Of a stretch of 58,877 nucleotides of DNA, positions 3,881-37,313 are shown in pieces. A program made the translations under genes and the position numbers. Origin of the DNA: an uncultured Bacteroidota bacterium (GTDB lineage Bacteria; Bacteroidota; Bacteroidia; Bacteroidales; P3); contig CACZWL010000015.1 in the NCBI GenBank assembly GCA_902784865.1, positions 46,699-105,575 on the forward strand, given 5' to 3'. The number at the start of each line of letters is the position of its first letter. Positions within the stretch are counted from its first letter, which is position 1. A model generated the notes under the pieces. That model worked only from the letters and a program-made list of their open reading frames with translations, did not search any database and was not told the DNA's origin.

Positions 3881-3929
3881 GATGACGGGTTTATGTAAGT
3901 AGTAAATAATTAAAATTTGAAATTCCATT

Positions 3930-3964: not shown

Positions 3965-4223
3965 TTTGTAAATATGCTTGTTTTACACACTAACAACCAT
4001 TGCTTTTTTATTATACTATACTTAACGATATAAGTTTATGTAAAATTTTAAGATAGATTATCAATCCTTTAACTTCGCAAAGCAACTAAAACAAACGGGC
4101 AAAAAGCGAATGAATAAGTCCATGAATGGTTATAAAAGCTGAAATTAATCACAAGACAGAATTTAGCCAAAAAAAATTTCTTTCAAAAACACAAGATAAA
4201 GGAGAGAGGTGGGGAAATGAGTG

Positions 4224-4658: not shown

Positions 4659-5459
4659 ATGGACGAGAAAATCAATCTTCTGACCCTGCCCACTGGCGGC
4701 GGTCAGGATGCCACCACAGCGATGGCGATGATGAACAACAACCCGTGGATGTACCTGGTGATGCTGGCGCTGTTCGGCAACGGTGCATTCGGCAACAACC
4801 GTGGTGCCGGCGTGAACGGGGTGCTGGACATGGAGACGCAGAACAAGCTGAACAGCTTGCAGTCGCAGATAAACGACAACAACAACAATGCGTGGGCCCG
4901 CGAGGCCATAACCAATGCCGGCAACCGTGCCGACTTTGCCATCTCGCAACTGGCACAGAGCCTCGGCGTGGGCGTGGGCGAACTGCGCGGAGCCATCGGC
5001 AGTGTAAAGGACGCCATGTTCAACATGGGTGCACAGAACGGCATGGGCTTCATGGGTGTGCAGAACTCTATTGCCATGGGTAACCTGAACATCATCCAGC
5101 AGCTGAAGGACTGCTGCTGCGCAACGCAGAAGCAGATTCTCGAGCAGGGCTACCAGGGCCGCATCGAGACCATCAACCAGACCAACGACCTGCAGAACTC
5201 CATCCGCGTCGAGAACGGTCTCGTCCGCGCAGAGGTGGCCGCATTCCGCCAGGCATGGGAAAACTCGCGCTACCAGGATGTGGTGGCCGAGAAGACCCGC
5301 CTGCAGACGGAGCTTGACCTGCTGCGTAGCCAGCAGGGCACGGCAGCCATGATTGCCCCCATTCAGGCGGAGGTGGTGAAGCTTGAGACCCAGATGCAGC
5401 AGTTCATCAACACCTACAGCGGCGGCGGCGCCAAGAGCGGCAGCACGAGCGGCCAGTAG
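4659..5459 (+). CDS. Conserved phage protein with coiled coil, function unknown
   Basis: 266 residues, starting at the first ATG after an AT-rich 71-base gap. The N-terminus is Gly/Asn/Met-rich with a short hydrophobic stretch (PWMYLVMLALFGNGAFG, near residues 28-44). Residues 60-130 and 150-250 are helical with heptad-like spacing. A CCC triplet occurs near residue 151. The tail is Gly/Ser-rich. Neighbours are structural and lysis genes. I do not recognise a characterised family; a virion or membrane-associated role is possible. Confidence 0.6.
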   Translation: MDEKINLLTLPTGGGQDATTAMAMMNNNPWMYLVMLALFGNGAFGNNRGAGVNGVLDMETQNKLNSLQSQINDNNNNAWAREAITNAGNRADFAISQLAQSLGVGVGELRGAIGSVKDAMFNMGAQNGMGFMGVQNSIAMGNLNIIQQLKDCCCATQKQILEQGYQGRIETINQTNDLQNSIRVENGLVRAEVAAFRQAWENSRYQDVVAEKTRLQTELDLLRSQQGTAAMIAPIQAEVVKLETQMQQFINTYSGGGAKSGSTSGQ

Positions 5460-5475
5460 AAATCCATCCCCCAGA

Positions 5476-5508
5476 GAGGACGGCGGCAGCGGATGCCGCT
5501 GTCCTCTA
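5476..5508 (+). terminator. Strong hairpin after the 266-residue phage gene
   Basis: A 14-bp stem (5476-5489 with 5495-5508) with one G-U pair and a 5-base loop. No T run follows, so it may protect the upstream mRNA or attenuate transcription rather than terminate it. Confidence 0.55.
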
Positions 5509-17672: not shown

Positions 17673-18374
17673 TCATCCTCCTACCTCGACCAGTTCGCCG
17701 TCGCGTACGGTGTACCATGTGTCGGCCTTGACCGTCTCGCCGTCCACCACGACGGCCTTCCATTCCTTGATATTGAAATTGTCATCGTTTTCCACAGCCA
17801 CCACAAGCAGGGCTCCGATGCCACCGCGCACCTTGGCATTTTCGTGACGGGCTACGGCGACGCCGTTTTTACCTACGGAAGCTGAACCTCTGCTCGTGGC
17901 AGCACCTCTATAGCCAGCCGTGGCAGCACCTCTATAGCCAGCCGTGGCAGCACCGCTATCGCCAGCCGTGGCAGCACCGCTATCGCCAGCCGTGGCAGCA
18001 CCGCTATAGCCAGCCGTGGCAGGCTTGCCTGGTTCTGCGTTGTTCTCATTGGTGATATGCTTCTTCACCCACTCCACATGAGCTTTGACAAGCCCAGGGA
18101 TGCCTATCTCGGCACCGACCGTCAATTTCGAGCAGCAGATCTTCTCTTCTTTTCTATGCACCTCGCCTTCGGCCTCTACCTCGCAATAGCGCGACGGCTT
18201 TCCGTATTCTGCCGGTGGATAGTAGTCAAACACATTCAACGGCGACTCATCTTCGCCGATGGCGTGAAACCCTTTCTGGCATATTTCAATGCAATCTTCT
18301 GTGTAGGTCTTCCCGACCTCGTACTGAAAACCTCTGCACTGGAGGTTTTCGTCAAATCCTTTGAATGCTTTCAT
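17673..18374 (-). CDS. DUF7666-type phage protein with octapeptide repeats
   Basis: 233 residues from the ATG at 18374. Residues 1-90 (KAFKGFDENLQCRGFQYEVG, ICQKGFHA, NVFDYYPP, RYCEVEAEG) match the DUF7666 type seen in many phages. Residues about 116-160 are tandem octapeptides of the form AATAG(D/Y)(S/R)G, encoded by 24-bp repeats. The C-terminal part returns to a beta-rich domain (GVAVARHENAKVRGGIGALL, ADTWYTVRDGEL). The repeats could form a small beta-solenoid and may change in number between isolates. Function unknown. Confidence 0.75.
   Translation of the reverse strand: MKAFKGFDENLQCRGFQYEVGKTYTEDCIEICQKGFHAIGEDESPLNVFDYYPPAEYGKPSRYCEVEAEGEVHRKEEKICCSKLTVGAEIGIPGLVKAHVEWVKKHITNENNAEPGKPATAGYSGAATAGDSGAATAGDSGAATAGYRGAATAGYRGAATSRGSASVGKNGVAVARHENAKVRGGIGALLVVAVENDDNFNIKEWKAVVVDGETVKADTWYTVRDGELVEVGG
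17892..18026 (-). repeat. 24-bp tandem repeat array inside the DUF7666 gene
   Basis: About five tandem copies of a 24-bp unit (on the plus strand cagccgtggcagcaccgcta and similar), with small changes at the codon for Tyr/Asp and Ser/Arg. The period is a multiple of three, so copy-number change keeps the frame. Confidence 0.85.
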
Positions 18375-18402
18375 TGTTAAATAAATTGAGGTTTGTCTAT
18401 TT

Positions 18403-18837
18403 TTATTCCACGCCCATGCGTTGGCGGGCTGCATGGAGGGCGCGTTCGATGATTACATGGTTGTCTTTGTTGAAGTCGTAGCGGCGTCCGCCGTAGGCCT
18501 CTTGATCCTTCTTGGCGTTGTCGAGGCTACCATGCCATACGATGGTGCCAGTAGCCTCGTTGACCACAACATATTGAGAGTATCTTACTGTTGACATAAT
18601 TGTTTGATGGTTTATAAAGTCGGTGCAGAGACGGGCTTTGTCCATAAAGACCTTGCCAATGGTGGAGACGTCGGGTTGATGGAAGACACGACCGTCGGAA
18701 TGGCCTTTAGGACAAGAGCCCATGAAATACTCCTTGGTTACGAGATTGAACGACGGGCCGGAAGTGTCGCGGACACAAAGCTCGCAATCACTGCAACGGG
18801 AGAGAAAGTTGCTTTTTGGTGTTGCTGTCTTTGGCAT
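18403..18837 (-). CDS. Phage protein with N-terminal cysteine cluster, function unknown
   Basis: 144 residues from the ATG at 18837 (ATG 18843 is an alternative). The N-terminus has a cysteine cluster (FLSRCSDCELCVRDTSG, then FMGSCPKGH) that looks like a metal-binding knuckle. A second part starts at MSTVRYSQYVVVNEATGTIV and contains a short domain ending LHAARQRMG. It overlaps the small coiled-coil gene upstream by about 50 bases. No characterised family recognised. Confidence 0.55.
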   Translation of the reverse strand: MPKTATPKSNFLSRCSDCELCVRDTSGPSFNLVTKEYFMGSCPKGHSDGRVFHQPDVSTIGKVFMDKARLCTDFINHQTIMSTVRYSQYVVVNEATGTIVWHGSLDNAKKDQEAYGGRRYDFNKDNHVIIERALHAARQRMGVE

Positions 18838-19461: not shown

Positions 19462-21606
19462 TTAATAAGGTACATCATCATTAGAGGTAAAGTCCAGTTC
19501 GTCCATGTATTGCCCATGCTGCTGGTCGAAATTGACGTTCTGCATCATGGCTGAAATGGAGAGTTGCTGCTGGCCCACGTTAGACCATCCGTAGTTGACA
19601 CTCTCCCATTCGGTATCTTTGAGACGGTTGGACTCCTTCTCGAAGAAGAGCTGGATGAAAGTATCGACGGCAGAACCCTTGTCACGACACTTGCAAATCT
19701 CGATGCAGTTGGTGCAGCCCGAGGCTGTGATACGTCCAACGGCATCGGCACCGAGGAACTCCGGGGCAAAGGTCATGAAATCCTTGTTGACACGGTGCAT
19801 GATGAAGACATTCTGGGCAAGGTCGGTGATATGGCCAGAGCCACTGACGCTGTTCATGCGGAGGAAGCCGCCGGACTTGTTTGGGTGAGCCACGATGTGG
19901 ATATGGATGTCAAGCTCTTTGGCGAGAGCCGTGAGAGCCACCATCAACCTGTCTTGTTGTTCGTACTTATCACCGGGGACACCCGTGAGGTCGAGTGTCA
20001 TGAGGTTGTCGAAGATGGCCACATCCACGTCGAATGTCTCTTTGAGTTTGCGAAGCTCGTCGATTATCTGGGTGATGTTGGAACCGTACTCGTTATTGAA
20101 GAGACGGAAATGTTTGTCGATCCAGGGGTCGATATGTTCGCAGATGTTCTTTGGGGTATAGAAGTAGCCCTCGACAGAGGTAGGACGGTTATACTGTTTG
20201 CCTGATGCTTGCAGGTAGAGCCACTGTTTCACCTCGGAACAGTCAAGCTCGCCAGTCCAGAGCGCCGAGTTATAGCTTTTGTCGGCAGCGTTGAGGATAA
20301 GCATATTGAGGAGGCTCGACTTGCCGCAGCCACGGTAGCCACTCCAGACAGTGACGTGCTTACGCTTGAAGCCGATAATCTTGCGGTCAATCTGCTCAAT
20401 ACCCGATGGCACATACTGCTTGATGTCGAACGAAGGCAGTGCGACAGAACTCATGGTGAGCCAGACATTGCCCTTCTCCTCGGTAGGCTGTATGGGTGCC
20501 GGGGGCTGAACGGTTGGCAGTTGTCGGAGTTGCGACTTGTCGAGGTGTCGCAGGTTCTTATAGAGGAAGTCTTGACGCTCCTGGTGGTCGTAGGCATTGG
20601 GTTCGTACTTCAGGCGCACGTCTTTCCAGCCGAAGCCGTTGCAGGTGTCGTGGAGGCACTTGTAGGCGATGGCTCCGTTGTCGTAGCGAAAGAGGACAGC
20701 ATCCTTGCCCGCATGTTCGGGGTTGAAGAGACAATGTTCGAGGTAGTAGCGAGTGCCGTCCGCGCTCTTGGCCTTGCCGACAATGTTGATGCCGTGAGCA
20801 GCACACCATTGTTCGAGGTCGAAATCTCCTCGACGCTGGTAGTCGTAATTGCGGGCAGGGAGATTGTCCTTCTTGTTGTCCTCGTCGGCAGGAGCGAACT
20901 GAGCCGATATGGCAGCGAAAGACATGATAGGAGTCGGGGTGATGATGTCCGGCACCTTGATGATACGACACATGCGCTGCGGTTGAGAGGGAATATTGGC
21001 ACCCTTGCGGTTGTAGCATCCTGGCAGACGAGCGATGCGAGAGGCATTGTAGACCACGCTGTCCACCTTGACAGATGCAGTTGTGAAAGCAATGCCGAGA
21101 GCCGCGATGAAATCCTTGACCAGTTTGTCGGTGTCATCGTTCTGTGGCATGTCGCAGGGGATATAGAGGTGGTATCCGTTGCCGCTATCCACCACCACGG
21201 GTTGGCTGATGCCGTGAGCGACGAGCCAGTTGTAGGCGTGACCCGCCACCTTGCGAGCCGCCTCTTTCTGTTCATCGGTCGAGTTGGTATCTTTGGGACG
21301 GTTGCAGTCGAAGTCGACGAACACCCAGCTGCGGTGTATGATTTCTTTGTCCTGAGTCGAGGTGCCGCCCAGCTTGACCTGTTCGCACTGTGGCCGTCCG
21401 TAGGTGTTCTGGTCGGGGTCGTTGACGGTGAAGTATATGTTGAAGTCCGAGTTGGCATCGACATCGCGGATGATGTTGTTGATGTCGCGGTAGTAGCCGG
21501 AGAGCGTCTTCTTGCCCTGCATGTAGCGCAGTTCCACAAGGTCGCCGTCATGCTTGAAGATGTGCCACCAAGACCGTAGTTGTTCTATTTGTTCCTGTGT
21601 CAGCAT
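19462..21606 (-). CDS. Phage primase-helicase (AEP-type primase plus DnaB/RecA-type helicase)
   Basis: 714 residues. The first half has the archaeo-eukaryotic primase pattern seen in phage and plasmid replication proteins: WVFVDFDCNRPKD (catalytic Asp pair, near residue 97), DSGNGYHLYIPCD, and SRIARLPGCYNRKG. A cysteine/His cluster (CLHDTCNGFGW) follows. The second half is a RecA-like helicase with Walker A GYRGCGKSS near residue 425, a Walker B strand VDVAIFDNL, and IHIHIVAHPNKSGG. It would unwind DNA and make primers at the fork, working with the initiator encoded just upstream. Confidence 0.88.
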   Translation of the reverse strand: MLTQEQIEQLRSWWHIFKHDGDLVELRYMQGKKTLSGYYRDINNIIRDVDANSDFNIYFTVNDPDQNTYGRPQCEQVKLGGTSTQDKEIIHRSWVFVDFDCNRPKDTNSTDEQKEAARKVAGHAYNWLVAHGISQPVVVDSGNGYHLYIPCDMPQNDDTDKLVKDFIAALGIAFTTASVKVDSVVYNASRIARLPGCYNRKGANIPSQPQRMCRIIKVPDIITPTPIMSFAAISAQFAPADEDNKKDNLPARNYDYQRRGDFDLEQWCAAHGINIVGKAKSADGTRYYLEHCLFNPEHAGKDAVLFRYDNGAIAYKCLHDTCNGFGWKDVRLKYEPNAYDHQERQDFLYKNLRHLDKSQLRQLPTVQPPAPIQPTEEKGNVWLTMSSVALPSFDIKQYVPSGIEQIDRKIIGFKRKHVTVWSGYRGCGKSSLLNMLILNAADKSYNSALWTGELDCSEVKQWLYLQASGKQYNRPTSVEGYFYTPKNICEHIDPWIDKHFRLFNNEYGSNITQIIDELRKLKETFDVDVAIFDNLMTLDLTGVPGDKYEQQDRLMVALTALAKELDIHIHIVAHPNKSGGFLRMNSVSGSGHITDLAQNVFIMHRVNKDFMTFAPEFLGADAVGRITASGCTNCIEICKCRDKGSAVDTFIQLFFEKESNRLKDTEWESVNYGWSNVGQQQLSISAMMQNVNFDQQHGQYMDELDFTSNDDVPY

Positions 21607-25215: not shown

Positions 25216-25237
25216 GATGATGCTATTTATTTATTTG

Positions 25238-25307
25238 TTTCCCCGACTGGAGTCGAACCAGTGTACAACAATTCGAAATGCTGCTCTACCTGTTGAGCTA
25301 CAGGGAA
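25238..25307 (-). tRNA. Phage tRNA with an unusual anticodon arm (reads as TCG, Arg)
   Basis: 70 nt on the minus strand. Acceptor TTCCCTG/CGGGGAA (7 bp), D arm GCTC/GAGC with loop AACAGGTA, and T arm ACTGG/CCAGT with loop TTCGACT are all canonical. The anticodon arm is best folded as CAGCA/TGTTG with an 8-base loop (TTTCGAAT), giving TCG after T33. Position 26 is missing and the variable loop is short. CCA is not encoded. It may be functional or degenerate. Confidence 0.75.
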
Positions 25308-26302: not shown

Positions 26303-27904
26303 TTATACTTTTGATTTTCGTTTCATTTGAGCTTCTGCCAGTGCCTCGCAGAGCACACGGCTTTGGTTGACCTCGACGGCGTTGCCGATAAATTTCTTCT
26401 GTTCGCTCTGGGTACCCACAAGCTTGTAGTCGCGGGGAAAGCCCTGTATGGCCAGCAGCTCGGACACCTTGAGCATACGCATCTTGATGTCGACAATGCC
26501 ATAGACGGCCATGAACTCCTTTATCTTGCGTGTCATTGGGCTGTCGGTGTCGTAGATGTTAATGCCAATGCCCTGCTCGGTGCTGATGAGGTGGGGCGGC
26601 ATCTTATCCATCCGAGCTATAAGCGTGAAGCACGGCTTTTCGATACTGCCGCCTGCGCTGGCAAACTGTGGGTTCATCAGGTATTGGGTGCTGACGAGGC
26701 TCTGCTTGGGGTTGTTGACTACCGTGGGAGCCGGGCTTTCTATGCTCGTCGGCTTGCTTTTGCCGTACTGACTATCGAGGAACTGCGTCGTCACCAAGGC
26801 TATGCGGTCTTTGGTCGGTATCGTCGGCGCAGGCTCGTCAACAGGCTTGTTGAAGCCGTTGCCGTAGTAGGCGGTAACAAAGGCGTGGTGGTCCACCGCC
26901 GTGATGGTGCCGGCAGGGAGGTCAATGCTTTGGTTTTTCGACATCGGGTGTCCGCTGAACTGCTTGCTGAGAAACTGACACTTGACAATGCCGAGCCTAG
27001 TCTGCACGGCCACCGTGGGGGCAGGCTCGTCGATGGCCGGCGCGTTGTGGTGCCCCTTCTGGTTCATGGAGTTGTACTTCAGCAGCCATGTGTCGCACCG
27101 CTCCTTACCTCCAGCCACGAACTTGACCAATCCGGCGTAGATGCGCTCCATCGTTTTCTCGCACAGCGGCTTCTTCTTGGCAAAGATGCTCTCGCCATCG
27201 TCCTGAAGGTCGAGCACCTCACGCACAGGGCGCCACTTGCGATACATCTTGAACATGCCGTCCTCGTCGCCGTTCTTTGAGTAGGTCTGCATGGGGAACG
27301 CCGTGGCGAGACCCGTGCGGGCGAACTGCCCGAAGAAGCGGCGGCGTGAGGTGTAGGCACCGAAGTCGGCGGCATTGAGCAGGCGCCAGTCGTAGATGTA
27401 GCCGTACTCCTGCACACGCTTCGTCCATTGCAGGTATGAGCTGCCTTTGTGCTTCGACACCGGCTTGCCGTTCTCGTCGAGCTCTCCCCAGCACATAAAC
27501 TCCTCGACGTTCTCGATCTGAATGTAGTCCGGCTGCAGGGCCTCGATGTAGCGGAAGAGGTGTTCGGCGAGGGTGCGGCTGTCGGCGTCGCGCGGCAGTC
27601 CACCTTTTGCGCGGCTGAAATTGGTGCATTCCAGTGAGGCCCAGAGCACCACTTTGGCACCGGGGTGCTGCCGCCGTGCTTCGTCGGTGATCTGCACCAG
27701 CGGCGATAGTTCCAATGTACGTATATCTTCTGTGAAATGCTTTACTTCGGGGTGGTTGGCCAGGTGCGACGCGATGGCGTGGGCGTCGTGGTTCACACAG
27801 GCAATGACCTTGGCGCACTTCTCGCCGTGTATTGATGCCTGTTCAACTCCCGTTGAGGTGCCGCCGGCGCCACAAAAGAGGTCTATGTAAAGAAGACGTA
27901 TCAT
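26303..27904 (-). CDS. C5-cytosine DNA methyltransferase (Dcm type)
   Basis: 533 residues. Motif I is DLFCGAGGTSTG (residues 8-19), motif IV is ASLECTNFSRAKGG (catalytic Cys near residue 93, with Glu in place of the usual Pro before it), motif VI IQIENVEEF, motif VIII TSRRRFFGQF, and motifs IX-X near the C-terminus (SEQKKFIGNAVEVNQ). It would methylate cytosine, probably to shield phage DNA. Longer than most (about 400), with an extended target-recognition region. The start overlaps the stop of the first early gene (ATGA). Its last about 110 residues recur in the chimera at 16882-17472. Confidence 0.92.
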   Translation of the reverse strand: MIRLLYIDLFCGAGGTSTGVEQASIHGEKCAKVIACVNHDAHAIASHLANHPEVKHFTEDIRTLELSPLVQITDEARRQHPGAKVVLWASLECTNFSRAKGGLPRDADSRTLAEHLFRYIEALQPDYIQIENVEEFMCWGELDENGKPVSKHKGSSYLQWTKRVQEYGYIYDWRLLNAADFGAYTSRRRFFGQFARTGLATAFPMQTYSKNGDEDGMFKMYRKWRPVREVLDLQDDGESIFAKKKPLCEKTMERIYAGLVKFVAGGKERCDTWLLKYNSMNQKGHHNAPAIDEPAPTVAVQTRLGIVKCQFLSKQFSGHPMSKNQSIDLPAGTITAVDHHAFVTAYYGNGFNKPVDEPAPTIPTKDRIALVTTQFLDSQYGKSKPTSIESPAPTVVNNPKQSLVSTQYLMNPQFASAGGSIEKPCFTLIARMDKMPPHLISTEQGIGINIYDTDSPMTRKIKEFMAVYGIVDIKMRMLKVSELLAIQGFPRDYKLVGTQSEQKKFIGNAVEVNQSRVLCEALAEAQMKRKSKV

Positions 27905-28134
27905 TTGTCGAAGATATTAGGTTTGCAAGCACCGTCGTCTATGAGTTGCTGGACGAAAGCCGGGGCATCGTCGATGGGGACGCAACGATTGAAGTGGCGG
28001 CCTGTGATATGCCAGCTGACAGCCACGGTGTCATCATCCGACGTGGAGGTGGAGATGCTGATGCCGTACTCCTTAGCGGCTTTCATCACAACGGAGAATC
28101 TGCTGCGGTCGGTGAGTTTGTATTGCTTGTTCAT
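27901..28134 (-). CDS. First gene of the leftward early operon, function unknown
   Basis: 77 residues, the first gene after the leftward promoter. Sequence has a helical N-terminus (KYGISISTSTSDDDTV nearby), a SWHITGRHFNR strand, and VQQLIDDG. No signal peptide. Its end overlaps the methyltransferase start (ATGA), so both are translated from the same message. Position suggests an early regulator or anti-host factor, but sequence gives no clue. Confidence 0.6.
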   Translation of the reverse strand: MNKQYKLTDRSRFSVVMKAAKEYGISISTSTSDDDTVAVSWHITGRHFNRCVPIDDAPAFVQQLIDDGACKPNIFDK

Positions 28135-28145
28135 ATATATTGTAT

Positions 28146-28176
28146 TTTGTCAGTTCAAAAATTGTTCTTACATTTG
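28146..28176 (+). promoter_or_regulatory. Rightward immunity promoter
   Basis: TTTG at 28146-28149, a 19-base spacer, and TACATTTG at 28169-28176, an exact match to the Bacteroidetes promoter pattern. It points at the regulator gene at 28279, with a start point expected near 28183. Its -33 element lies inside the proposed operator at 28143-28152. Confidence 0.75.
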
Positions 28177-28213
28177 CATTTGATTTGTATATAGTTTCTA
28201 TTGAAATCGGATG

Positions 28214-28244
28214 CAAAAATAAATAAAAGTATTGACATGACAAA
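28214..28244 (-). promoter_or_regulatory. Leftward early promoter
   Basis: On the minus strand: TTTG (28244-28241), a 19-base spacer, and TATTTTTG (28221-28214). It points left at the early operon, with a start point expected near 28207. The -33 element lies inside the proposed operator at 28238-28247. It faces the rightward promoter, and the two transcripts would overlap. Confidence 0.75.
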
Positions 28245-28278
28245 ATAAAAATATTTACATTTTTTATATTTTATTGGT

Positions 28279-28644
28279 ATGCAAGGCTTTAAAATCAAAA
28301 AAAAATTGTTAGAGGGTGGTTTTGTGCTTGCCAAAGTAGCCCTTTCGATGGGTGAGTCGCCACAAAATCTCGACATTTTGCTACGCGCAAAGGATGTCAA
28401 GAGTGGAACCATCGAGCGCATATGCTTGGCAATCAATAAAACTATTGATTTTTTCTACTCCGAAAAAGAGTATGAATACATGCTCCCAAAGGTAGAAGTT
28501 CCGGGGTACGGAGAAGTAGTGGCCCTCAAGGAATACACAAAAATTGTCCGGGAAAATGAGCGTCTACTGATGGAGCTGGAAACATTAAAAGAAAAAACAG
28601 CATCGTACTCGGCTCCGATGACAGAGGAATCTATCTTGCCGTAA
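28279..28644 (+). CDS. Phage regulator (repressor-like, HTH N-terminus)
   Basis: 121 residues. The first 70 residues look like a compact helical HTH domain (KIKKKLLEGGFVLAKVALSM, SPQNLDILLRAKDVKSGTIE, ICLAINKTIDFFYS). The C-terminal part has a short strand and a helix KEYTKIVRENERLLMELETL, probably a coiled coil for dimerisation. The same helix start (YT.IVRENERL) is in the second regulator at 29482. Located right after the rightward promoter, as expected for a phage repressor or Cro-like protein. Confidence 0.75.
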   Translation: MQGFKIKKKLLEGGFVLAKVALSMGESPQNLDILLRAKDVKSGTIERICLAINKTIDFFYSEKEYEYMLPKVEVPGYGEVVALKEYTKIVRENERLLMELETLKEKTASYSAPMTEESILP

Positions 28645-28659
28645 AGGCATATCTATAAC

Positions 28660-29454
28660 ATGAAGAATGGTAGAAAGGAAATAGTAATAAGCATCGTCAT
28701 GCTCTTTTTGCTGGCGGGTGCATCATGGTTTATCTCGTTGGGCCTCGTCAGGGCATGTGCTAACGCTTTTGCGAAGCCAGACCCGCAAGCATGGGAGTGG
28801 GTGTATATCTCGACAAGTCCGAGGGCGTATAGTTACCACCAAAGTGGTGACTGCAAATATCTCCGAAAGACAACGCATAACATAGAGTTCATTTCTGTTG
28901 ATGAAGCAGATGAAGATGGGCGAACTCCTTGTAGTTATTGTATTGAAGAGAGCCGTAGGCATCAGTATGATAATTCGGCATTGTATGTAACACCTTTCGT
29001 GTTCATGCTTCTTCTTGGTTTGATCGCATTGATTGAACGGGTGTTTAGAAAATATAGTATTAAGTCTCCTTTCGTTAAGAAAAAAGAAAGGAAGGTTCTT
29101 AATCAAAATGATATTATCAATCTCGAATTGTCGATAAAGTATGCAAACATCAACAAAAAAAATTGTGAGGCTCAAAAAGAAGCGTTGTCGTCTATGCGCA
29201 AAACGCTTGATTTGATAGAAGCGGAGTTTCTGCAGAAAACTTTTATTGACGAGGAATTCATAGACCGCATAGGCAGGGTTGTTACTATACTTGTCAATGG
29301 CGGATTTTCCCATAGTATTGATAACATAATGACTTTATGGAATACTGCAAGGAACAGCAAAGAACAAGAGTGTATGCGGTTGAATACAAAAATGTTAATC
29401 CATGTGCTATGGTGTGGTTACATCGAGAGGTTGCTCTTGATACAACGAAAATAA
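28660..29454 (+). CDS. Membrane protein with Ada-like metal-binding motif in the immunity region
   Basis: 264 residues. TM1 about residues 7-30 and TM2 about 109-127 flank an extracytoplasmic segment with H60, C65, C91 and C94 in the pattern Y-H-x4-C-x-Y-L... P-C-S-Y-C, as in Ada-like zinc-binding modules. The last 130 residues are helical (NLELSIKYANINKKNCEAQK, EALSSMRKTLDLIE) and would be cytoplasmic. Genes of this position in temperate phages often block superinfection; that role is inferred. It is framed by two regulators and begins 16 bases after the first. Function not recognised. Confidence 0.7.
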   Translation: MKNGRKEIVISIVMLFLLAGASWFISLGLVRACANAFAKPDPQAWEWVYISTSPRAYSYHQSGDCKYLRKTTHNIEFISVDEADEDGRTPCSYCIEESRRHQYDNSALYVTPFVFMLLLGLIALIERVFRKYSIKSPFVKKKERKVLNQNDIINLELSIKYANINKKNCEAQKEALSSMRKTLDLIEAEFLQKTFIDEEFIDRIGRVVTILVNGGFSHSIDNIMTLWNTARNSKEQECMRLNTKMLIHVLWCGYIERLLLIQRK

Positions 29455-29481: not shown

Positions 29482-29790
29482 ATGATAAAAGACAGGATAG
29501 TACAGGTGTTGGAGGCAAAACGAGTGCCAAAGGAAAAGACAATAAAGGAGCTGGGTGTTACATCTGCCAACTTTCGTAGCAAGGCTAAGGAGACACCCAT
29601 CAACTCGGACGTTATCGTAAATCTATTTGCGATGTTCCCGGATATTAATTTGGAATGGCTCATAACAGGAGAGGGGGAAATGATCAAGCAACCTGCACCG
29701 ACAGATATGGTATCAATCAACAGATATACAAGAATCGTCCGTGAGAATGAACGCCTGCGGATTAAACTAAAAGAAATCAAAAATGAATGA
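29482..29790 (+). CDS. Phage Cro/CI-type regulator
   Basis: 102 residues. The first 65 residues have the layout of Bacteroidetes phage repressors: helix (MIKDRIVQVLEAKRVPKEKT), HTH (IKELGVTSANFRSKAKE), and the signature INLEWLITGEGEM. The C-terminus (INRYTRIVRENERLRIKLKE) repeats the YT.IVRENERL motif of the first regulator. Overlaps the next gene by 8 bases. Together the two regulators likely govern the lysis-lysogeny decision; which is the maintenance repressor is not clear. Confidence 0.8.
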   Translation: MIKDRIVQVLEAKRVPKEKTIKELGVTSANFRSKAKETPINSDVIVNLFAMFPDINLEWLITGEGEMIKQPAPTDMVSINRYTRIVRENERLRIKLKEIKNE

Positions 29791-30079
29791 ATGTTTGGCT
29801 GAACTGAAAGCAGCAGCTTTCGAGGTGCTATTGCTCAACCCCGGCAGCGAAATGGCCGACTGGCAGCAGACTCTGGTCCTGCAATACGTCACCGAAGTAG
29901 TGGACGCATACGGGAAAAATCCCACGGAGGTGTATGCAGCCCTCAACGACCTGTGGGAATCGCCCTATGAAGACATTAACAGCGGTCTGGAGTACGACTA
30001 CAAGACCTGGGCAGCGGCATTCGCTACCGATGAGGCCGTGCGGATGTACTACGACCTGACAAGTAAAATGAAAATGTAA
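29783..30079 (+). CDS. Small acidic phage protein at the prophage's right end
   Basis: 98 residues; a helical protein with acidic and aromatic residues (LNDLWESPYEDINSGLEYDY). No motif recognised. It overlaps the second regulator by 8 bases, so it is expressed with it. It is the last gene before the chromosomal rnz gene. GC content is closer to the lysis arm than to its AT-rich upstream neighbours. Confidence 0.6.
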   Translation: MNECLAELKAAAFEVLLLNPGSEMADWQQTLVLQYVTEVVDAYGKNPTEVYAALNDLWESPYEDINSGLEYDYKTWAAAFATDEAVRMYYDLTSKMKM

Positions 30080-37160: not shown

Positions 37161-37226
37161 CACTTTGTTGATTTTCAGGTTTTTTATCTTATTTTCGGGG
37201 CACTTCATCCCCATGCATTTTGAGTG

Positions 37227-37257
37227 CAAAGATACATCTTTTTGTACGACTGGCAAA
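37227..37257 (-). promoter_or_regulatory. Promoter of prs-rplY
   Basis: On the minus strand TTTG (37257-37254), a 19-base spacer, then TATCTTTG (37234-37227). An exact match to the Bacteroidetes consensus. Confidence 0.85.
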
Positions 37258-37264
37258 AAAAAGT

Positions 37265-37295
37265 TTTGCCATGTCGGAAAAAGTTAGTACTTTTG
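37265..37295 (+). promoter_or_regulatory. Promoter of the tRNA-Leu gene
   Basis: TTTG at 37265-37268, a 19-base spacer, then TACTTTTG at 37288-37295, placing the start point just before the tRNA. Lies back to back with the prs promoter. Confidence 0.85.
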
Positions 37296-37313
37296 CACCC
37301 GATTTCGACACCC

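Follow-up and report, generated by a model that had tools for sequence, protein, structure and literature searches.

The 144-bp gap at positions 28135-28278 of the window, as we call the whole 58,877-nucleotide stretch of Bacteroidota DNA analysed here, is probably the lysis-lysogeny control region of an apparently complete prophage. Judged from its sequence, the gap is likely to hold a switch in which two promoters face each other and repressor dyads lie over both of their -33 boxes.

The prophage is about 61.4 kb long and lies at a tRNA-Ser gene, about half of it to the left of the window. The features that define it and its two operons, a rightward lysogeny operon and a leftward early operon, are the following:

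28279..28644, forward strand: 121-aa HTH protein, first gene of the lysogeny operon and proposed repressor of the mirrored sites (HTH recognized through homologues)
28660..29454, forward strand: 264-aa protein, second gene of the lysogeny operon (hydrophobic stretches seen by eye; no Pfam match above the cut-off)
29482..29790, forward strand: second HTH protein of the lysogeny operon (weak CI-repressor-like matches)
29783..30079, forward strand: 98-aa conserved protein (50% identity in the related phage stretch L002; 41% to a protein of Bacteroides phage BS-TP4)
30152..30170, forward strand: attR, which repeats the 19 bp of attL (C15:15477-15495, where tRNA-Ser has its 3′ end) in direct orientation
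27901..28134, reverse strand: first gene of the early operon, 77 aa (no HTH match in Pfam or PHROGs)
26303..27904, reverse strand: C5-cytosine DNA methyltransferase, second gene of the early operon
19462..21606, reverse strand: primase/DnaB-type helicase, early operon
C15:15878-17053: integrase, near the attL at tRNA-Ser

A DnaD-like loader is also encoded in the leftward operon, further left than the methyltransferase. The layout had at first suggested a Mu-like phage, an identity rejected on account of the DnaB/DnaD-type replication genes, the integrase and the tRNA-Ser att sites. Its relatives among named phages are those of Bacteroides, Riemerella and Cellulophaga; these and the promoter type place the host in Bacteroidota. 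The repressor has a match in 3 of the 190 genomes of the window's family, the genome of the window included; none of 67 candidate stretches in genome contigs was confirmed as a relative through the repressor, nor was any in viral contigs through the helicase or an 86-aa HTH protein. Two further observations concern the leftward genes. Within the early operon ARAGORN reports a tRNA-like gene (25237-25307, reverse strand) whose anticodon is unclear, and the phage protein at 17673-18434 (reverse strand) has a run of repeats of the ATAGDSGA/ATAGYRGA type.

The -33 element of Bacteroidota promoters is TTTG. Their -7 consensus has been stated as TANNTTTGY (PMC12632263). Both promoters of the gap match the Bacteroidota housekeeping consensus (-33 TTTG, -7 TANNTTTGY). 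The initial annotation had described two full Bacteroidetes-type promoters pointing at each other, and both prove to be exact: a rightward TTTG-19-TACATTTG at 28146-28176 (forward strand) and a leftward TTTG-19-TATTTTTG at 28244-28214 (reverse strand), each followed by C. With that base included, the two predicted elements are:

28146..28177, forward strand: rightward (lysogeny/repressor) promoter, TTTG-19-TACATTTGC
28213..28244, reverse strand: leftward (early, lytic) promoter, TTTG-19-TATTTTTGC

Such matches are rare by chance. TTTG-N19-TAnnTTTGY occurs six times in the window against 0.05 expected, a number reached in none of 100 shuffles, and a facing pair whose -7 boxes are 15-45 bp apart occurs once in the window and in none of 100 shuffles. 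On both strands of the gap there is no TAnnTTTG besides the one in each direction. Elsewhere in the window, outside the prophage, a back-to-back pair of full-consensus promoters lies at 37226-37296, 17 bases upstream of tRNA-Leu.

The two -7 boxes are 37 bp apart. If starts are placed 4-7 bases past each box, the start points would be 24-30 bp apart; the positions near 28183 and 28207 given earlier were likewise placed by the customary distance from a -7 box. Since a bound polymerase reaches some 20 bases beyond its start, two polymerase complexes should not fit together at this separation.

A 10-bp sequence had also been reported, inverted over both -33 elements with centres 95 bp apart, and TATTTTGTCA is found exactly so, occurring only twice in the window, at 28143-28152 (forward) and 28238-28247 (reverse). 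The mirrored match extends beyond what was annotated, to the 16-mer TATTTTGTCAnnTCAA at 28143-28158 and 28232-28247. This 16-mer is exact at only these two places in the 2.4-Mb genome, with five more places at one mismatch. The inverted placement therefore stands; as the operator unit, however, the 10-mer is probably to be replaced by a 12-bp imperfect dyad, TTGTCAnnTCAA, whose centres are 85 bp apart:

28143..28158, forward strand: putative mirrored operator, copy 1, TATTTTGTCAGTTCAA (covers the rightward -33 box; its dyad core is 28147-28158)
28232..28247, reverse strand: putative mirrored operator, copy 2, TATTTTGTCATGTCAA (covers the leftward -33 box; its dyad core is 28232-28243)

Evidence that this dyad has a function comes from L002, where the 12-bp core is again inverted at the two facing promoters, one copy exact and one with one mismatch. 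In the 10,207 bases of L002, TTGTCANNTCAA is matched with no more than one mismatch at only two places, 3896-3907 (forward, one mismatch) and 3971-3982 (reverse, exact). Both are intergenic, and they are 75 bp apart. The exact site covers the leftward -33 box and the inverted, one-mismatch site lies at the weaker rightward -33 position, where the box is poor. Of 5000 Markov sequences of this stretch, 0.06% contained two or more sites of this kind; the figure is flattered by the limit of one mismatch, which was chosen after the L002 sites were known, and was obtained with the window pair's own consensus. The rest of the gap aligns poorly between the two phages: the scores in the two orientations are 89.0 and 90.5, where shuffled sequences give means of 79.3 (SD 7.1, largest 102.5) and 77.6 (SD 6.0, largest 98.5). 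An att core nearly identical to that of the window follows the L002 lysogeny operon. In the L002 list of open reading frames, a counterpart of the C5-cytosine DNA methyltransferase was not seen beside the switch.

Could the mirrored 10-mer merely extend, by chance, the -33 box that both promoters share, and not be an operator at all? The find was post hoc, the DNA is AT-rich, and the motif is common in viral contigs, where TTTGTCANNTCAA-N10-TANNTTTG occurs in at least 120 stretches. Among the matches listed, only 1 of 126 such sites is accompanied by an HTH of the 28279 type, in a stretch that has an identical copy of the L002 gene-1 protein; the operator motif, taken with the -7 box, was too common in viral contigs to serve as a finder of relatives. 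Nor do facing promoters generally resemble each other. Over 61 facing pairs (the 72 stretches introduced below plus the window, after exclusion of pairs that share a promoter or lie at the edge of a contig), the -33 flanks agree on average at 4.08 of 12 bases within pairs and at 3.91 between pairs, which rules out mirrored -33 operators as a general rule for facing pairs. The window pair, however, is the single case of 10 agreeing bases of 12 around its two TTTG boxes, and although this count was post hoc, only 0.18% of between-pair promoter comparisons reach it. With the recurrence at both facing promoters of L002, at the frequency in Markov sequences given above, we regard a chance origin as quite improbable. 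The putative mirrored operator is special to the window phage and L002 among those examined, and is not part of the general layout. The spacing of its two copies is close to a whole number of helical turns in both cases (85 bp or 8.1 turns in the window, 75 bp or 7.1 turns in L002), and looping between the dyads is possible.

Which protein would bind the dyads? The 28279-28644 product has no Pfam HTH match of its own, and its first 68 residues, the HTH domain, are 60% identical to the L002 protein and 48-52% identical to those of two other homologues, L482 and L483. L482 is above the Pfam cut-off for HTH_3, and in L483 both HTH_3 and Peptidase_S24 are slightly below it. Judged by these homologues, the 28279-28644 product most likely represents the DNA-binding portion of a CI-like repressor. 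Two of the five homologues besides the window, L482 and L483 (the other three being L484-L486), were inspected for operators, and each has a dyad of its own: TCTTTAT-N4-ATAAAGA in L482 and ATAAAGA-N4-TCTTTAT in L483, that is, the same half-sites in reversed order. A second match in L483 falls within the gene. The presumed recognition helices of these two proteins differ from those of the window phage and L002. There is no TTGTCAnnTCAA site in L004, whose HTH is about 41% identical, and none within two mismatches in the gap of BS-TP4. Thus, in the few phages at hand, the dyads co-vary with the 28279-type HTH, which points to this type as the binder. As to the surroundings in L483 (region L483:5416-5505), the ATAAAGA/TCTTTAT dyad lies in the spacer of the leftward promoter TTTC-19-TATCTTTG; translations suggest a MuA/MuB-like gene pair beside the repressor gene of this phage, and its repressor joins the 28279-type HTH to Peptidase_S24.

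Alternatively, the second HTH protein (29482-29790) or a protein of the early operon might occupy the mirrored sites, which we hold to be unlikely. The lysogeny operon has two HTH genes, and the two types have swapped places between the phages (L002:4045-4488 and 5001-5501 against 28279-28644 and 29482-29790 in the window), so that in L002 the gene nearest the promoters is of the other type. The 28279-type HTH of L002 is moreover fused to a homologue of the 98-aa protein. Against this, the dyad is common to phages whose 28279-type HTH domains are 60% identical, whereas the other HTH type is only 33% identical between the window phage and L002, and the first early gene is without an HTH match. 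We prefer the 28279-28644 product as the proposed repressor.

The following scheme can be proposed. The rightward promoter would serve the lysogeny operon (the 28279-28644 HTH protein, a membrane-like protein, the second HTH protein and a small protein) and the leftward promoter the early, replication operon. Polymerase complexes at the facing starts would overlap and so exclude each other, and each transcript would have to cross the opposite promoter, causing interference. A dimer of the 28279-28644 protein would bind the mirrored TTGTCAnnTCAA dyads that lie on the two -33 boxes; in this way it would silence the early promoter and also curb production of the repressor itself. When the repressor is absent, the early promoter would win. 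The sequence shows the promoters, their facing geometry, the mirrored dyads with their recurrence in L002, and the repressor and early genes on either side; the start points, the identity of the binding HTH protein, the mutual exclusion and the feedback are inferred. That the gap is a face-to-face lysogeny switch is well supported by its position between repressor and replication operons, the att ends, the integrase and the recurrence of the mirrored site in L002; the promoter interference described earlier is a prediction.

How general is the layout? The initial annotation likened the gap to face-to-face arrangements of other temperate phages but knew of none in Bacteroidales phages. The layout is not a one-off: it recurs at the repressor genes of phages with this promoter type. 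A search of IMG/VR gave 72 stretches with exact facing pairs whose -7 boxes are separated by 15-45 bp. By profile, an XRE-type HTH lies within 700 bp in 32 of these, in none of 46 stretches with a wrong, 16-bp spacer, and in 2 of 120 back-to-back stretches among the matches listed (Fisher P 3e-14 for facing against these back-to-back matches). With repeats removed, the counts are 31/63, 0/33 and, among the matches listed, 2/84; all of them carry a circularity, as the XRE HMM was built from genome hits of alignment A3, in which 9 of the 11 rows come from the flanks of facing pairs.

Pfam and PHROGs provide an independent check on this profile. The scan covered those unique pairs that are flanked on either side by an ORF starting with ATG and 60 aa or longer, which holds for 36 of the 63 facing pairs and for 53 of the 84 back-to-back ones (wrong-spacer pairs, with 3 of 33 qualifying, were left out). 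Among the 72 proteins flanking the facing pairs are 24 matches to phrog_8 (transcriptional regulator), 23 to phrog_4 (repressor), 16 to HTH_3 and 8 to Peptidase_S24. The 106 proteins at back-to-back pairs gave, among the matches listed, one HTH_3, three GerE and three HTH_30. Among the 25 families listed for these flanks are a "transcriptional regulator" PHROG and some PHROGs of anti-repressors, each represented once, and a repressor PHROG beyond those 25 would have at most one member.

The contrast is softer when the promoter consensus is not used for sampling. The first 110 HTH loci listed for 395 genomes of the phylum gave 73 non-redundant upstream regions. Facing -7 boxes 5-45 bp apart are found in 16 of them, compared with 0.73 in Markov sequences (SD 0.81, largest 3 in 100 runs), and back-to-back -7 pairs, sorted into three similarly wide bins, number 9, 11 and 4. 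When the limits are widened and -7 boxes alone are considered, 17 of the 73 regions have facing and 15 back-to-back boxes, so that the contrast holds for full-consensus promoters only; in the 42 regions with a divergent neighbour, the counts are 11 and 6. In sum, the facing layout is recurrent and not universal, and its sharp contrast with back-to-back order is limited to full-consensus promoters.

Among cellular genomes the exact form is rare, exact facing pairs being present in 4 of the 395, the window's own included. The other three places are not flagged as HTH-linked: two fall inside long open frames, and the third is intergenic, with neighbouring genes that in our reading do not resemble a phage switch. 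The window pair itself is not flagged by the XRE profile, because its first HTH is of a type outside the profile and its second lies beyond 700 bp. Pairs 46-76 bp apart occur in 1 of the 395 genomes, where the pair falls inside a long open frame. At four places in the genome of the window a full rightward promoter faces a -7 box, and the present pair is one of them. At another, C14:66393-66663 (L397, L471), the facing -7 boxes lie just upstream of a second HTH gene, and a TGTAATC/GATTACA inverted repeat overlaps their inner edges. In the repressor regions of eight phage records (a further matching record, MT838851, was left out of the survey), exact TAnnTTTG boxes face each other within 60 bp in four (L492-L495); in BS-TP4 the facing pair departs from the consensus by one mismatch, and L489-L491 have none.

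These comparisons bear on a simpler reading, in which one promoter matters in vivo, the second is weak or decorative, and the early promoter is repressed without any interference. One of the facing promoters is off-consensus in both L002 and BS-TP4. In the window, however, both promoters are perfect, including the trailing C, and each is the sole TAnnTTTG of its direction in the gap; proximity to an XRE-type gene, moreover, goes with both the facing order and the 19-bp spacer. We consider the simpler reading rather improbable, and prefer a switch in which both promoters take part.

The spacing of the pairs suggests a wider idea. In HTH-linked exact facing pairs the -7 boxes are 15 bp (the lower limit of the scan) to 37 bp apart, with a median of 22, and 26 of the 32 are at 20-28 bp; of 21 viral-contig pairs separated by 0-14 bp, only 2 have an HTH link. 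At the median, the starts would be about 9-15 bp apart. We tentatively suggest, as a reading with somewhat less than even chances, that a "one-slot" switch is common to temperate Bacteroidota phages: the boxes would lie so close that the region has room for a single polymerase at any moment, and the state would be set by competition for the slot, biased by the repressor and, in this phage, sharpened by mirrored -33 operators at a near-integral helical spacing that may be bridged.

In the PR/PRM region of lambda, an HTH repressor gene is divergent from the early genes and operators lie over the promoters. The window shares these features, its operators being putative. The promoters of lambda, however, are back-to-back (PMC6593788), whereas those of the window face each other. 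The closer likeness is to P2 and 186, in which lytic and lysogenic promoters also face each other between the repressor and the early genes, a likeness seen here at the level of sequence. In P2-like phages these promoters are 40-60 bp apart, and the first early gene of the P2/186 type encodes an HTH protein, Cox or Apl, with sites between or overlapping the promoters (PMC7498355). In 186, pR lowers pL 5.6-fold through interference, mainly of the "sitting duck" kind (PMC6593788; for 186 CII, see PMC7708051). In the window the -7 boxes are 37 bp and the starts probably 24-30 bp apart, the first early gene encodes 77 aa without an HTH match in Pfam or PHROGs, the promoters are of the -33/-7 Bacteroidota type, and one mirrored dyad, a putative operator, lies over each -33 box. 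By its separation and its first early gene the switch does not belong to the P2/186 type; our best reading is that the switch would work like that of P2 and 186 but is tighter.

Among phages of Bacteroidota, the hankyphage has a small CI-like HTH repressor, RepCHP, that silences the prophage in Bacteroides (PMC12135933). This phage differs in being transposable, and mapping of promoters or start points was not found in the accessible part of that report (PMC12135933). BS-TP4 resembles the window phage in its repressor, second gene, 98-aa homologue and integrase, which are divergent from recombination genes. Its facing promoters, TTTG-19-TAACTTTG leftward and TTTG-19-TAACTTTA rightward, the latter with one mismatch, differ in having -7 boxes only 5 bp apart. 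A mapped lysogeny promoter pair in Bacteroidota phages was not found among the papers listed from the mostly open-access literature, as judged by titles and the openings of abstracts.

In closing, Bacteroidota are abundant in the human gut, and lysogeny control in their temperate phages has barely been mapped. With a sequence signature of the switch, the repressors of uncultured prophages could be located more easily, together with their operators and early promoters. Such a signature would also allow testing whether interference-based switches arose here independently of those of P2 and 186.
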